Positions 50,538-56,832 of a stretch of 64,000 nucleotides of DNA are shown here, one piece after another. Origin of the DNA: Clostridia bacterium. Its GTDB lineage: Bacteria > Bacillota > Clostridia > RUG12999. The stretch spans positions 62,001 through 126,000 of the forward strand of contig JAFQMF010000017.1 in NCBI GenBank assembly GCA_017396395.1, given 5' to 3'. Within the stretch, counting starts at the first letter, position 1, and every line of letters begins with the position of its first letter. Under the pieces are notes generated by a model that was not told the DNA's origin, ran no database searches, and worked only from the letters and a program-made list of their open reading frames with translations. The position numbers were made by a program, and so were the translations under genes.

Positions 50538-50645
50538 AAAAAAAATTGTTTTATGTCAAAAAGTAAATATATGAAAGCTTTTTGGATAGATTTAGCATAT
50601 GTGAAAAACAAGGAATGTATTATCCCTAATTTAATACATTCGCAC

Positions 50646-50982
50646 AAAGTGTGGTTATGCTGCAAAAGCTTATAAGCAAGGCATAATCAGTGAAGAGGGA
50701 ATGGGGTGAGAATCCCCTGCGATTAAACTGTCGGTGTGTGCATTGAATGTTTTTATATCCGTTATCGAAAGATAGTCATTAGGAAACTGAGAAGGCAGGA
50801 TGTAAAAATGTGGACGTTTAAGTCTATATGGTGCGAGTCACAAGACCTGCTTTGATATTATCTCGTAAGTGCTTCAAAAGCATAGAGGTAATATTTTCAG
50901 TTGTTACTCAACTGAATTGCGATTCATTACAGAAAAACTCAGCTGTGGTAATTTTTTGAAAGAAAAATTACCGCAGTTTTTT
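50646..50982 (+). promoter_or_regulatory. Cobalamin (AdoCbl) riboswitch with terminator
   Basis: The aptamer, about 50646-50865, shows the expected blocks in order: GAGGGAATGGGGTGAGAATCC (50691-50711 region), a TGTCGGTG segment, the B12-box-like AACTGAGAAGGCAGGATG near 50785, and GCGAGTCACAAGACCTGC near 50834. Downstream are a long hairpin (atattatctc with gaggtaatat), a CAGTTG/CAACTG hairpin at 50899-50914, and an intrinsic terminator (ctgtggtaattttt with aaaaattaccgcag, then seven Ts) at 50943-50982. High cobalamin should stop transcription of the ECF genes. Confidence 0.9.
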
Positions 50983-51047: not shown

Positions 51048-51950
51048 ATGGATTTGATAATAATGAATGAATTTAAATCGTACCATCCAATTGTAAATTT
51101 TATGTATTTTGTATTTGTAATTGGATTTTCCTGCTTTTTTATGCATCCCATATGTCTTATAATATCACTTGTATGTGGTTTTATATACTCCGTAATGCTA
51201 AAGGGCAAGAAAGCAATAAAAACAAACTTGATATATATGCTTCCCATGCTGATTGCAATGGCACTTATAAACCCTGCCTTTAATCATGAAGGAATGACGA
51301 TTATAAAATATCTGCCAAACGGAAATCCGCTGACACTTGAATCAATAGTTTACGGACTTTGTGCAGCTGTAATGATTGTGAGTGTTATATGTCATTTTAG
51401 CTGTTATAACGAGGTTATGACAAGTGATAAGTTTATTTATCTGTTCGGAAAAATTATTCCCTCTATGTCTTTAATCATATCTATGACACTTCGATTTGTT
51501 CCAAAATTTTCGGCACAGCTTAAAGTGGTAGCGAATGCCGAGAGGTGTATGGGGCGTGATGTTTCAAACGGAAGCATTATTAAACGAGCAAAGAATGGAC
51601 TGAATATCTTGTCCATTATGACAACCTGGTCGCTTGAAAATGCTATTGAAACGGCAGACAGTATGAAGTCCCGAGGATATGGTGTGCCCGGAAGAACTGC
51701 ATTTTCAATATTTACATTTGATAAGAGAGATAAAAAAGCACTTATTTGCATTTTCCTTTTAGGAATATATACATTGGTTGGAAATTTGATGGGCAAAATG
51801 TACTTTTGTTATTTCCCGTCAATGAAATCAGCAGATGTTACGCCATTTGGCATAAGCGTATTTCTGTCGTATTTACTTCTTTGTATATGTCCTATAATAA
51901 TTGAAATTTGGGAGATGAGAAAATGGAAAGCTTTAAGGTCGAAAATTTGA
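51048..51950 (+). CDS. ECF transporter T component (EcfT-like), cobalamin-controlled
   Basis: This 300-residue membrane protein has about five helices. The EcfT coupling motif SMKSRGYGVPGR near residue 205 (Ala/Ser-Arg-Gly type) links the membrane part to the ATPases. EcfT is the transmembrane scaffold of energy-coupling-factor vitamin importers. Its end overlaps the start of the ATPase fusion gene by 28 bases, so translation is probably coupled. The start is uncertain: neither ATG at 51048 nor that at 51063 has a strong ribosome binding site. Control by the cobalamin riboswitch indicates uptake of cobalamin or a precursor (inference). Confidence 0.88.
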   Translation: MDLIIMNEFKSYHPIVNFMYFVFVIGFSCFFMHPICLIISLVCGFIYSVMLKGKKAIKTNLIYMLPMLIAMALINPAFNHEGMTIIKYLPNGNPLTLESIVYGLCAAVMIVSVICHFSCYNEVMTSDKFIYLFGKIIPSMSLIISMTLRFVPKFSAQLKVVANAERCMGRDVSNGSIIKRAKNGLNILSIMTTWSLENAIETADSMKSRGYGVPGRTAFSIFTFDKRDKKALICIFLLGIYTLVGNLMGKMYFCYFPSMKSADVTPFGISVFLSYLLLCICPIIIEIWEMRKWKALRSKI

Positions 51951-54598
51951 GTTTTACTTATCCTAACAGAACAGATAAGGCACTTACGGATATAAATTTC
52001 ACAGTGAATCAGGGCGAGTTTATTTTGCTGTGTGGTAAATCAGGATGCGGAAAAACTACACTTTTAAGATTGTTAAAATCCTCATTATCACCTTATGGAG
52101 AAATAAGCGGAAACATCTATTTTAACGGCAAAATCCTTGCAGACTATGATATCAGGCAGCAAGCATCAGGTATTGGCTTTGTAATGCAAACGTGCGATAA
52201 TCAGATTGTAACCGACAAGGTATGGCACGAACTTGCTTTTGGTCTTGAAAGTCTTGGATATAAAACACATGAAATACGCACAAGAGTTTCTGAAATGGCT
52301 TCTTTTTTCGGCATACAAACTTGGTTTCATAAAAAGGTAACCGAACTTTCAGGAGGTCAAAAGCAACTACTTAATCTTGCATCAGTTATGGTAATGCAAC
52401 CATCTGTTTTGATTCTTGACGAGCCTACAAGTCAGCTTGACCCAATCGCTGCAGAGGAATTTTTAAAAACTTTAGAGAAAATTAATCGGGAGCTGGGTGT
52501 GACCGTTATTCTCACCGAGCATCGCCTGGAAGATGCTTTTACTATGGCAGACAGGGTAATTGTTATAGATGAAGGAAAAATTATTGCAAATGAAACTCCA
52601 GAAAAAGTGGGCAAGATTTTAAAATTACAAAATCACCATATGTATAAAGCACTTCCCACGCCCTTAAGAGTTCACGGATGTGTTAAAAATACTTTACCTT
52701 GCCCCTTAACAGTACGAGAAGGCAGAATATGGCTTGAACAATATTCAAAGAACAACATTTTAAATTCAGATTTAATTCCTAAAGATGCTTTGAAAAACAA
52801 CAAGGATATAGTAATTGAAGTGAAAGATGCGTATTTCAGATATGAAAAGAATTTGCCCGATGTAGTAAAGGGATTTAATTTAAGTGTGCGTAAAGGGGAA
52901 TTGTTCTGTTTAGTCGGCGGAAACGGTACCGGAAAGACAACCATGCTTTCTCTTATATCAGGACTTAACACCCCATACATAGGCGATGTACTGATAAAAG
53001 GACAAAGCATCTCAAAAATCAAAGGCTTGTATGACGGATTGCTTGGTGTTCTTCCTCAAAACCCGCAAAGCGTGTTTGTGAAGAAAACGGTTTATCTTGA
53101 TTTGATGGAGATATTGTCTGAAAAGAAACTGTCAAAGGAAGAAAAAGAACAAAAAGTACAAACTATATCTGCACTTTGCAGAATAGAAAATCTTTTAGAC
53201 TCACATCCGTATGATTTATCCGGCGGTGAACAACAAAGAGCTGCTACCGCTAAGATTCTCCTTATGGAACCTGAAATATTGCTTCTTGATGAGCCCACAA
53301 AAGGAATGGATGCACATTTCAAAGAAGAATTTGCAGATATTCTTTTAGACTTAAAAGAAGCCGGTGTCACTATTGTTATGATATCTCACGATATAGAATT
53401 TGCGGCAGAATATGCAGACAGGTGTGCTCTTGTCTTTGACGGAAGTATAACGTCCGTCAGTGCACCGAGAGAATTTTTTAAGGGCAAGAATTTTTATACA
53501 ACTTCTGCAAACCGTATGGCAAGAACACATCTTTATGATGCGGTTTTGGCAGAGGATATAATACTTGCCTGCGGCGGTGATGTGCCAAAGAGAGAAAGAA
53601 AAACCGGCAAAATCAATTTACATAAGACTCAAGTTCAAATAAAACCACAAACAGAAAAAGTACAAAAGCTGACTCCTGCAAGAATTATTGTCGGCAGTAT
53701 TTTTGTATTGCTTTTTGCATTAACATCATTATCTTTTATAACTGACATTGATATATTAGGATTTTCAAGAGTGAACTTCTTAGGTGCTGGAACCTTGCAG
53801 ATAATTGCAATAATGGAAGTTGCAATCGCTTTTTTTTGTTTATTTCCGCAAAAAGATATTGGAATTAAAGTAATACAAGTTCCTGCTTCAGACAGAAAGC
53901 TGACAAAAAGAACCCTTATAGCAACTTTTCTGATATTACTTTTAATACCATTGACAATTTATTTGGGCGTTTTCTTCTTGGGTGACAGAAAGTATTATTT
54001 CATAAGCCTTCTTATTATCCTTGAAACAATGATGCCCTTTTGTATGGTGTTTGAGATGGGAAAGCCCAAAGCAAGAGAGCTTATAGTGATAAGCGTACTG
54101 TGTGCTATTGCAGTCATGGGCAGAGCAGCTTTCTTTATGCTCCCCCAATTCAAACCCGTTATTGCACTTATAATTATTACAGGTGTGTGCTTTGGCGGCG
54201 AAGTGGGTTTTTTGGTAGGTACAGTTACCGGATTTGTTTCAAACTTTTTCTTTGGACAAGGCCCGTGGACTCCGTGGCAGATGTTTGCCTTTGGTATTAT
54301 TGGCTTTTTAGCAGGTGTTCTTTTTAAAAAGGGATTTCTCAGGAAAACAAAAGCATCCTTGTGTGTTTTTGGATTTTTAGCAACCTTTATTATCTATGGT
54401 GGTATTATGAACCCAGCATCTGTTATTATGTGGCAGAATAACATCACTTATGAGATGATTCTATCTTCCTACATTGTAGGAATACCTGTTGACTTAATTC
54501 ACGCACTTTCCTCTGCTTTCTTCCTTTGGTATATCTCCCAGCCTATGATAGACAAGCTTGAGAGAATTAAAGTTAAGTATGGATTGGTTGAAAGATAA
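51923..54598 (+). CDS. ECF transporter fusion: two ABC ATPases joined to an S-like membrane domain
   Basis: This 891-residue protein combines three parts. ATPase 1 (about 1-230) has Walker A GKSGCGKTT, signature LSGGQ and Walker B LILDEPTSQ. ATPase 2 (about 285-520) has GGNGTGKTT, LSGGEQ and LLLDEPTKGMD. After a linker, residues about 575-890 form eight or so membrane helices, including GRAAFFMLPQFKPVIA and GQGPWTPWQMFAFGIIGFLAG, the latter typical of ECF S components. Together with the upstream T protein it makes a complete importer in two chains. The position behind a cobalamin riboswitch resembles Cbr-type systems. The ATG has GGGAG eight bases upstream. Confidence 0.87.
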   Translation: MESFKVENLSFTYPNRTDKALTDINFTVNQGEFILLCGKSGCGKTTLLRLLKSSLSPYGEISGNIYFNGKILADYDIRQQASGIGFVMQTCDNQIVTDKVWHELAFGLESLGYKTHEIRTRVSEMASFFGIQTWFHKKVTELSGGQKQLLNLASVMVMQPSVLILDEPTSQLDPIAAEEFLKTLEKINRELGVTVILTEHRLEDAFTMADRVIVIDEGKIIANETPEKVGKILKLQNHHMYKALPTPLRVHGCVKNTLPCPLTVREGRIWLEQYSKNNILNSDLIPKDALKNNKDIVIEVKDAYFRYEKNLPDVVKGFNLSVRKGELFCLVGGNGTGKTTMLSLISGLNTPYIGDVLIKGQSISKIKGLYDGLLGVLPQNPQSVFVKKTVYLDLMEILSEKKLSKEEKEQKVQTISALCRIENLLDSHPYDLSGGEQQRAATAKILLMEPEILLLDEPTKGMDAHFKEEFADILLDLKEAGVTIVMISHDIEFAAEYADRCALVFDGSITSVSAPREFFKGKNFYTTSANRMARTHLYDAVLAEDIILACGGDVPKRERKTGKINLHKTQVQIKPQTEKVQKLTPARIIVGSIFVLLFALTSLSFITDIDILGFSRVNFLGAGTLQIIAIMEVAIAFFCLFPQKDIGIKVIQVPASDRKLTKRTLIATFLILLLIPLTIYLGVFFLGDRKYYFISLLIILETMMPFCMVFEMGKPKARELIVISVLCAIAVMGRAAFFMLPQFKPVIALIIITGVCFGGEVGFLVGTVTGFVSNFFFGQGPWTPWQMFAFGIIGFLAGVLFKKGFLRKTKASLCVFGFLATFIIYGGIMNPASVIMWQNNITYEMILSSYIVGIPVDLIHALSSAFFLWYISQPMIDKLERIKVKYGLVER

Positions 54599-55011: not shown

Positions 55012-55083
55012 TTATTTTGCACCGGTACATAAACATATTAAAAAAATTACTGCGAAAATTACCATAAAAAATATAATTAACAT
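55012..55083 (-). CDS. Small hydrophobic ORF (23 residues)
   Basis: The ORF reads MLIIFFMVIFAVIFLICLCT followed by GAK, one continuous membrane helix with a short polar tail. A GGGAG ribosome binding site lies about ten bases upstream. It is 70 bases downstream of the candidate structured RNA on the same strand, after its terminator. Such peptides include type I toxins and small membrane regulators, but nothing proves that this one is translated. Homology cannot be judged by eye at this length. Confidence 0.35.
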   Translation of the reverse strand: MLIIFFMVIFAVIFLICLCTGAK

Positions 55084-55156: not shown

Positions 55157-55368
55157 TAAAAAGTGCGACAGCCAGAGCCGTCGCACAAAAAACGCAAACT
55201 CCGATTGTCGCCAAACAATTTTACATTGAAGCTATCAAAATACTCTTCATTGTGTGGAACTTGCATTTTTATCAAATTCACTCAATGAAAAGTATGGCTA
55301 AATAAGGGTATAAAAATACCTGTAAAAATAAATAGCTTCAATTTATTTATATGTAAAATTATTTGGCA
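55157..55368 (-). ncRNA. Candidate structured non-coding RNA with own promoter and terminator
   Basis: On the minus strand a promoter predicts a start near 55368. The RNA's 5' arm GCCAAATAATTTTAC (55367-55353) pairs with GTAAAATTGTTTGGC (55224-55210), and ATTGAAGCTAT (55342-55332) with ATAGCTTCAAT (55235-55225). Inside are a GGTAT/ATACC hairpin (55320-55307) and a 13-bp helix (ATACTTTTCATTG 55295-55283 with CAATGAAGAGTAT 55252-55240). Both long helices contain one G-U wobble that would be a C-A mismatch on the opposite strand, which favours the minus-strand transcript. A GC-rich terminator ends it. No ORF fits. Size and shape recall 6S RNA, but I cannot assign a family. Confidence 0.55.
55158..55186 (-). 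terminator. Terminator of the candidate ncRNA
   Basis: On the minus strand GTGCGACGGC pairs with GCTGTCGCAC with a tight loop (one G-U), followed by five Ts. Confidence 0.8.
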
Positions 55369-55373
55369 TAACC

Positions 55374-55402
55374 ATTATACCACATTACTTTCAAAAAATC
55401 AA
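55374..55402 (-). promoter_or_regulatory. Promoter of the candidate ncRNA
   Basis: On the minus strand TTGATT (55402-55397), 17-bp spacer, TATAAT (55379-55374). The predicted start coincides with the first base-paired arm of the RNA. Confidence 0.75.
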
Positions 55403-55600
55403 GATGCGAAATATCCTTTGTTTTTGCAAAAAAGAATAGAAATATAACCCTTTATCCTTAAGAAAAAAGGGCAGTTTGAAATTGTAAGCTATGTTTTAAA
55501 TAAATAAAAGTGAATTTAAGCCTAATTCAAATTCTACAAAACACATAATATTATACCCCATCTTAATAATAAATATTGTTTATTAATTGCGACATATAAG
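55403..55600. other. AT-rich intergenic stretch
   Basis: About 200 bp with no ORF, RNA or repeat that I can support. Confidence 0.5.
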
Positions 55601-55757
55601 GTTTAGGCTCCCTTGTGTAAAGGGAGCTGTCAGCATAGTTCACATAGTGAACTATTGATGACTGAGGGATTGTATTTGCTTTGTTTATTCTCAACCCCTC
55701 CGAGTTTGCCTTGCAAACCCACCTCCCCTTACACAGGTGAGGCTTTCTTTCGACAAC
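55601..55757. repeat. MITE-like dispersed repeat with terminal inverted ends
   Basis: One end reads GGCTCCCTTGTGTAAAGGGA and the other CCTCCCCTTACACAGGTGAG, near-inverted copies of each other. The interior has a hairpin (agttcac/gtgaact, near 55634-55648) and a TTTGCCTTGCAAA palindrome. Elements of this type, with ends close to 'CTCCCTTGTGTAAAGGGAGCT', are scattered through many gut Clostridia genomes (from general knowledge). No transposase gene lies inside. Confidence 0.7.
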
Positions 55758-55865: not shown

Positions 55866-56174
55866 TTATAGAACTTTATTTAAAAAGTCGATAGTTCTGG
55901 GATGTTTGGGATTGGAGAAGATTTCTTCAGGAGTTCCTTCTTCGAGTATTACCCCTTCGTCCATAAACAGGACTCTGTCGGCAACCTCACGGGCAAAACC
56001 CATTTCATGGGTTACCACCACCATGGTCATACCATCTTTTGCAAGCTGTTTCATAACGGACAGAACCTCACCTTCGGTTATATCCACTGAAATGCCGTTT
56101 AAAACATTGTTATGACCAAAAGATTTTTTTAAATCTTTTACATGAATTTTTATATTATTATCTTTCACGGTCAA
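55866..56174 (-). pseudogene. Amino-acid ABC transporter ATPase with in-frame deletion of the catalytic core (glnQ-like)
   Basis: The roughly 102-residue product keeps the N-terminal strand region ([20 protein letters not shown]) and the C-terminal third ([42 protein letters not shown]) of a GlnQ/HisP-type ATPase of about 240 residues. Walker A, the signature motif and Walker B are gone. The join reads EGEV|LSVM, and intact relatives carry a GEV tripeptide on both sides of the missing part, so recombination between short direct repeats is likely. It cannot hydrolyse ATP. The start is probably the TTG at 56174 (AAAGGAG upstream) or the GTG at 56168, overlapping the permease gene. Confidence 0.85.
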
Positions 56175-56832
56175 GGCTGAGTCTCCTTTCCAGTGCATTT
56201 GCAACCTGCTGCAGTGCGAGAATTACTACAAGATACATTACCGCAACAATAGCCCACATATCAAAGGATTTAAATGTAATTGATATAACATTCTGGGCTT
56301 TGTTAACCAGTTCCGGAAAACCGATAACCGATAAAAGCGATGTGTCTTTGAGTGTTATAATAAACTGGTTGACAATGCTCGGAATCATATTTTTAATAGC
56401 CTGGGGCAATACAACTCTGAACATTGATCTCCAATAAGACAGACCGAGACTTCTTGCCGCCTCCATCTGACCGGGGTCAATAGTCTGAATACCCGCACGA
56501 ATGATTTCCGACATATATGCACCACAGTTTAAGGCCAGACAAATTGTACCTGCCTGAAGTGCACTAAGTACGAATTTTGCGCCGAAGGATGTTCTTATTC
56601 CGTAAGGAACACCATAAAAAATAAAGAATGCAAGAACAATCAGCGGTACACCTCGTATAAGGTTTACATATACCACCGATATGGCTTTGGAAACTTTGTT
56701 GTCAACAACACTTGCAAGTCCAAAGATTATACCGAGTATGCAACCAAAAATAAGTCCGCACAAAGCAAGCAGGAGCGTCTGACCCATTGCAGCCAGAAGA
56801 AGATGACCGTATGTGCTGATAAGTTGAACCAT
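56158..56832 (-). CDS. Amino-acid ABC transporter permease (HisM/GlnP family)
   Basis: This 224-residue inner-membrane permease has about five helices. The cytoplasmic EAA loop that docks the ATPase is [22 protein letters not shown] near residue 135. The N-terminal [19 protein letters not shown] is typical of polar amino-acid permeases. The gene itself looks intact. Its ATPase partner is deleted in its core and its binding protein is truncated, so the transporter cannot work unless it borrows parts from elsewhere. An AGGAGG site precedes the ATG. Confidence 0.88.

Follow-up and report, generated by a model that had tools for sequence, protein, structure and literature searches.

A putative class of transcription-attenuating leader RNAs with a loop-tail pseudoknot in Clostridia

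Is the structured RNA at window positions 55157-55402 of this Clostridia DNA a free-standing RNA gene, as a first-pass annotation of the sequence had proposed, or is it the leader of an adjacent gene? We studied the copy in the window (i.e. the whole analysed stretch of 64,000 nucleotides) together with its relatives in other genomes. The results indicate that the RNA probably belongs to an undescribed class of Clostridia RNAs that attenuate transcription in cis. A free-standing RNA gene is very unlikely.

All of the parts that the first-pass annotation had described were found again on the minus strand. The promoter with 17-nt spacing, the inner 13-bp helix, the small 5-bp hairpin and the GC-rich terminator with its U run are all present (Table 1), and the expected length of ~210 nt agrees with a leader spanning 55367-55158. 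A start at the first paired base, G55367 within GCC, fits its distance of 6 nt from the -10 element; among the relatives with a strong promoter, 127 show the same 6-nt gap. The two closing helices and the 10-nt bulge were recovered as well, with lengths of 17 and 9 bp in place of the 15 and 11 bp given before. The minus strand folded with a minimum free energy of -73.7 kcal/mol (z -9.5; 0 of 200 shuffles were as good), compared with -59.3 kcal/mol (z -7.9) for the plus strand, and hence the earlier argument for a single transcript direction holds. No convincing ORF overlaps the RNA, as had also been stated. Two features had gone unnoticed: a 15-nt segment of the apical loop can pair over its full length with the tail immediately 3' of the closing helix, and this tail has a second complement in the 5' arm of the terminator.

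Table 1. Elements of the leader RNA and its downstream ORF in the window.
Feature	Position	Strand	Basis or remark
-35 element TTGATT	55397..55402	-	sequence; spacer to -10 of 17 nt
-10 element TATAAT	55374..55379	-	ends 6 nt ahead of the first paired base
Complete leader RNA, from the first paired base through the terminator U run	55158..55367	-	fold z -9.5; R1 covariance model 128.7 bits
P1, 5' strand (17 bp with 55226-55210)	55351..55367	-	fold and covariation
P1, 3' strand	55210..55226	-	fold and covariation
10-nt bulge on 5' side between P1 and P2	55350-55341	-	
P2, 5' strand (9 bp with 55235-55227), after bulge	55332..55340	-	fold; helix-energy test in relatives
P2, 3' strand	55227..55235	-	fold; helix-energy test in relatives
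P3, small hairpin GGUAU/AUACC (5 bp), then U-rich linker	55307..55320	-	fold; conserved in long-form members
P4, 5' strand (13 bp with 55252-55240)	55283..55295	-	fold; helix-energy test in relatives
P4, 3' strand	55240..55252	-	fold; helix-energy test in relatives
Apical hairpin P4b, GAAUUUG...CAAGUUC	55257..55279	-	fold; must open if the pseudoknot forms
Pseudoknot strand AAAAAUGCAAGUUCC in P4 loop	55256..55270	-	15/15 pairs with tail; covariation
Joining segment GACAAUC, P1 to tail	55203..55209	-	GAC[A/U]AUC near invariant
Tail GGAGUUUGCGUUUUU, pseudoknot 3' strand and antiterminator 5' strand	55188..55202	-	pairing and covariation tests
Antiterminator 3' strand, within terminator 5' arm and loop	55173..55184	-	-9.6 kcal/mol in window; in relatives, matched-versus-permuted test and covariation
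Intrinsic terminator, GC-rich hairpin 55186-55163 and U run 55162-55158	55158..55186	-	fold; same place in 188/192 relatives; arms covary
23-aa hydrophobic ORF MLIIFFMVIFAVIFLICLCTGAK	55012..55083	-	sole downstream ORF with a Shine-Dalgarno sequence; precedes a convergent transporter gene

BLASTN searches in relatives detected homologues in several genomes, frequently with multiple copies each. A pattern scan of GTDB genomes, which demanded an exact tail, found at least 119 loci; all matches listed were in Clostridia, and nearly all of them in MAGs of gut or rumen bacteria, Pumilibacter intestinalis being the one named isolate. The family occurs in a long form with P3 and the loop GAAUUUGAUAAAAAUGCAAAUUCC, and in a short form with a loop of the type AUUUUU...GGUAAAAAUGCAUGCUC. 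Common to both are P1, the long inner hairpin, the joining segment (GAC[A/U]AUC or [AG]GCAAUC across the forms), the tail and the terminator. The long-form covariance model (R1) matched in 30 of 148 relatives and in 52 of 393 genomes of the class, with up to 11 copies per genome. The short-form model (R2) matched in 73 of the 393 genomes; its counts are lower bounds, as several genomes reached 8 matches, the number of candidates scored there. When 399 genomes were sampled from the phylum, only two matches were found, and both belonged to that class. The earlier suggestion of a Clostridia-specific RNA with its own promoter and terminator was right. The genome of the window contains three copies: the window copy (R1 E 5e-21), C12 (R1 E 2e-12) and C7, which is weak with R1 and has an E of 1.7e-14 with R2. 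Recent duplicates also occur (L038/L039). At L204, L213, L152, L238 and L047 we observed tandem RNA copies (two, or one partial and one full), each with its own promoter and terminator.

The homologues carry compensatory changes, and therefore the RNA is more than a chance fold. Of 30 pairs compared across 75 long-form sequences, 23 were changed on both sides, and 271 double-change cells were counted against 133 by shuffling. We also compared the energies of helices formed with a member's own partner strand (matched) and with the strand of another member (permuted) in 174 non-redundant relatives. The matched and permuted energies were -15.6 and -9.7 kcal/mol for P1, -16.0 and -7.4 kcal/mol for P2, -16.6 and -6.4 kcal/mol for P4, and -15.5 and -9.7 kcal/mol for the terminator arms. 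Hence, the structure of the RNA family is under selection. The apical hairpin P4b was paired in 92% of the cells in the 75 relatives, with little covariation. In the long-form relatives (A1 columns 14, 201 and 212), the A or U within GAC[A/U]AUC, the joining segment, changes together with a pair of P1: an A-U pair goes with A, and a U-A or C-G pair with U. This position behaves as if it paired with the P1 3' strand or formed a base triple.

In the window, all 15 positions of the loop segment AAAAAUGCAAAUUCC can pair with the tail GGAGUUUGCGUUUUU, if G-U pairs are included. Across the 174 relatives the matched and permuted energies of this pseudoknot were -17.1 and -14.9 kcal/mol; in the short form they were -14.6 and -11.8 kcal/mol. 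The 36 short-form sequences had 19 double-change cells in the pseudoknot versus 8.5 by shuffling, and their covariation score was reached by none of 500 shuffles, with far lower values in slid controls. At L208, three neighbouring loop positions have changed and the tail follows. Covariation is hidden in the long form because the strands are conserved, partly since the pattern scan selected an exact tail; in unselected members the strands do vary. By prediction, the pseudoknot is far more stable than the local hairpin (-18 versus -4 kcal/mol, long form). The sequence would also permit a U-A-U triple helix in which the U-rich linker or hairpin meets the A5-U5 stretch of the pseudoknot.

A second complement of the tail, here extended by the last bases of the joining segment, lies in the 5' arm and loop of the terminator. 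In the window, 55179-55173 can pair with 55203-55197 and 55184-55182 with 55194-55192; examples from relatives are AAUCGGAGCUGUGC/GUAUGGUUUCGAUU (L225), GGAGUUGUGC/GCGCGGCUCC (L047) and ACAAAGCG/CGCUUUGU (L226). The energy of this antiterminator was -10.92 when matched and -9.76 when permuted (sd 0.13; the most stable of 40 was -10.10), and -5.95 with shuffled letters. In the short form the matched and permuted values were -13.04 and -10.32. The long form gave a weaker signal, in which the matched value of -10.12 barely exceeded the best permutation (-10.09), because the partner CUUCGG is largely the common terminator loop. In a count of pairs, 38 short-form tails had 20 double-change cells versus 9.2, with a covariation score reached in 0 of 500 shuffles; the proof of antiterminator covariation rests mainly on the short form. 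An antiterminator hairpin folded before the 3' arm is made had a mean z of -3.1 in the short form and -1.6 in the long form. No such matched signal was found between the tail and the 3' arm of the terminator. Comparison of the terminator stem arms alone with the whole leader gave no antiterminator signal, which appeared once the loop was included and the tail was used. The leader and the Shine-Dalgarno region showed no clear matched pairing signal.

An intrinsic terminator stands right behind the conserved 3' tail in 188 of 192 copies, and in 165 of 174 its stem begins 0-1 nt past the tail. These pairings make pseudoknot, antiterminator and terminator mutually exclusive, and such exclusivity is the logic of a riboswitch-like attenuator.

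The position of the RNA relative to genes points in the same direction as its pairings. A strong promoter was found in 83% of the copies, compared with 20% of shuffled upstream sequences. A Shine-Dalgarno sequence and a start codon come immediately after the terminator in most relatives. A same-strand ORF starts within 120 nt of the tail in 142 of 181 copies, while a fifth have no ORF within 120 nt. In 95 of 180 copies the start codon lies at most 30 nt from the U run, which leaves no room for a second promoter. Using a simple hydrophobicity rule, we identified a signal sequence or N-terminal anchor in 67% of the downstream proteins of at least 110 aa, versus 15.5% of 605 control ORFs (neighbouring genes from the same loci); a lipobox was present in 25.5% of the downstream proteins and 2.6% of the controls. 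Among 135 downstream proteins, Pfam identified BspA-type LRR_5 in 23, MazE/AbrB in nine, a copper amine oxidase N-terminal domain in five, CHAP in three, M23 in two and AMP-binding enzymes in three. Small Cys-rich proteins and proteins of 40-85 aa were also recurrent. We noted small AbrB/MazE-like proteins whose Cys-rich tail resembles a zinc ribbon downstream of L036, L037, L041, L082, L085, L137, L144 and L235, and Cys-rich TGIELTPGN proteins downstream of L038, L150, L201 and L213. As regards a leader role, the copy in the window is one of the less clear cases. No larger ORF was found downstream of it by the ORF criteria applied to the relatives, and its target is uncertain because only the 23-residue ORF follows. 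This ORF may be the target, or the target may have been lost and the ORF may be a remnant.

The mechanism that we propose builds on elements with computational support, namely the helices, the pseudoknot, the exclusivity of antiterminator and terminator, the leader position and the regulon bias. Transcription would start at the first base of P1, and the P1-P4 fold would act as the sensor domain. The tail behind P1 would have two exclusive partners, the P4 loop (pseudoknot) and the terminator 5' arm (antiterminator). With the tail bound in the pseudoknot, the terminator would form and transcription would stop after ~210 nt (OFF); with an unbound tail, the antiterminator would form first and the polymerase would enter the adjacent gene (ON). 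From the sequences we infer this operation of the switch, its default state and its setting by a ligand or protein. Judging by the predicted stability of the pseudoknot, the switch may rest in the OFF state, although the kinetics of folding during transcription could favour the opposite. In the relatives, the switch would mainly control secreted proteins, lipoproteins and surface proteins, plus some small regulators.

Other explanations fit parts of these data. A stand-alone small RNA acting in trans, with downstream genes that are incidental or reached by leak-through, would be in line with the own promoter and strong terminator of nearly all copies, with the fifth of copies without a nearby ORF, and with the 23-aa ORF behind the window copy. 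However, we consider it improbable, given the same-strand starts close to the tail and U run, the covarying antiterminator and the strong bias to one kind of gene. The first-pass reading as a stand-alone RNA gene thus gives way to a leader, in view of the translation start right behind most terminators and the competition of antiterminator and pseudoknot for the tail. There is even less to be said for processive antitermination, in which an RNA of the put or EAR type (PMC9378689) modifies the polymerase directly instead of acting as a base-pairing switch. The fixed distance of 0-1 nt between folded domain and terminator would suit such an RNA, but the present RNA had no Rfam EAR match, the targets are adjacent single genes rather than long operons, and no processive antitermination is needed because a base-pairing antiterminator is present and covaries.

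Two further explanations concern the origin of the family. The multiple copies, the overall hairpin shape and some recent duplicates are reminiscent of a mobile or repeat element of the MITE type, and the first-pass annotation had named a transposon-derived inverted repeat as a possible refutation. Yet P1, P2 and P4 diverge while keeping their pairing, so that pairing rather than sequence is conserved; promoter, terminator and gene order are fixed; and the duplicates include the gene. We found no exact pattern match in 2.9 million viral contigs, and no blastn match to one long-form member in phages and plasmids. We regard this explanation as the least credible of all. Membership of a known family, such as 6S RNA or type III antitoxin RNA, is hardly more credible. 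It is suggested by the general shape and by the fact that antitoxin RNAs likewise precede a terminator and a gene, but is opposed by the many copies per genome, by downstream genes that are mutually unrelated and whose 25 most frequent Pfam families include no toxin of the ToxN type, and by the Rfam scans. In Rfam 15, no family matched this RNA in the window or at 13 homologue loci at the gathering threshold, and permissive scans (E<=10) with one long-form and one short-form member gave no meaningful match. The likeness to 6S RNA (RF00013) suggested earlier was rejected, since this model remained unmatched at gathering and at E<=10, R1 found up to 11 copies, and genes follow directly downstream. 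Type III toxin-antitoxin RNA was rejected as well, the present RNA being a single unit followed by LRR_5, AbrB, lipoprotein and other genes.

If the RNA is an attenuator, it could also be a new riboswitch class, in which P1-P4 would directly bind a ligand (a small molecule or an ion), and this ligand would tune the loop-tail pseudoknot and thereby coordinate genes for secreted, lipo- and surface proteins across uncultured gut Clostridia. We put this forward tentatively. As in attenuating riboswitches, a conserved 5'-leader domain has a promoter upstream and a gene directly downstream, and is coupled to an exclusive antiterminator and terminator, most strongly in the short form. A leader responsive to c-di-GMP was considered and rejected: G000, G025 and G567 carry 2-8 RNA copies each without a GGDEF match, so that c-di-GMP is dispensable, and GGDEF presence does not track the RNA. 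The class occurs in about one fifth of the sampled genomes of its taxonomic class, often in many copies, at genes for surface and secreted proteins. It would reveal a regulon and its signal in bacteria that can hardly be cultured, and the competing pairings are defined precisely enough to be tested directly with compensatory mutations.

Several other features were seen in the window. At 55866-56204 (minus strand), an ORF of 112 aa for an amino-acid ABC transporter ATPase joins the N-terminus in frame to the C-terminus, and the part from P-loop to Walker B is missing, by internal deletion or assembly error. A repeat-like element GGCTCCCTTGTGTAAAGGGAGC... lies at ~55600-55750, and a similar sequence immediately precedes the RNA copy of L038, which suggests a dispersed MITE-like repeat; a repeat search found no inverted pair in it at the thresholds used. 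A cobalamin riboswitch at 50630-50868 (plus strand) is followed by a region (51048-54598, plus strand) with the T component of an ECF transporter and an 896-aa ORF; in this ORF, two EcfA-type ATPase domains and a membrane S-type component appear to be joined.

The suspicion that the RNA might be undescribed was borne out in the databases and papers searched: it lies outside Rfam 15, and the texts of the open-access papers searched contained neither a description of the class nor the conserved string. A survey of human microbiomes, which is likewise computational and covers the same kind of habitat, reported 3161 candidate structured RNAs, 508 of them directly upstream of genes (PMC8040213). 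Its main text describes nothing like the present RNA, but overlap with one of the unnamed candidates is possible. 6S RNA shares the size of ~200 nt, the long closing helix and the own promoter and terminator, whereas the present RNA is multicopy, precedes genes, does not match the 6S model and has a pseudoknot and antiterminator. Type III antitoxin RNAs (ToxI) show the same order of promoter, pseudoknotted RNA, terminator and gene; in contrast, the present RNA lacks repeated pseudoknot units and a downstream toxin gene family. In pseudoknot riboswitches of the preQ1 and SAM-II type, too, a pseudoknot with the 3' strand decides gene expression, but the present RNA is much larger (130-190 nt before the terminator), matches no family, and its loop-tail pairing spans a rod of 30-40 bp. 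With the terminating riboswitches and attenuators of Firmicutes it shares a conserved 5'-leader fold, an antiterminator and terminator with a common strand, a gene just downstream and a regulon of scattered genes. It differs from these riboswitches in having no Rfam match, in targets that are mostly secreted or surface proteins, and in a putative anti-antiterminator that is a long-range pseudoknot between loop and tail.
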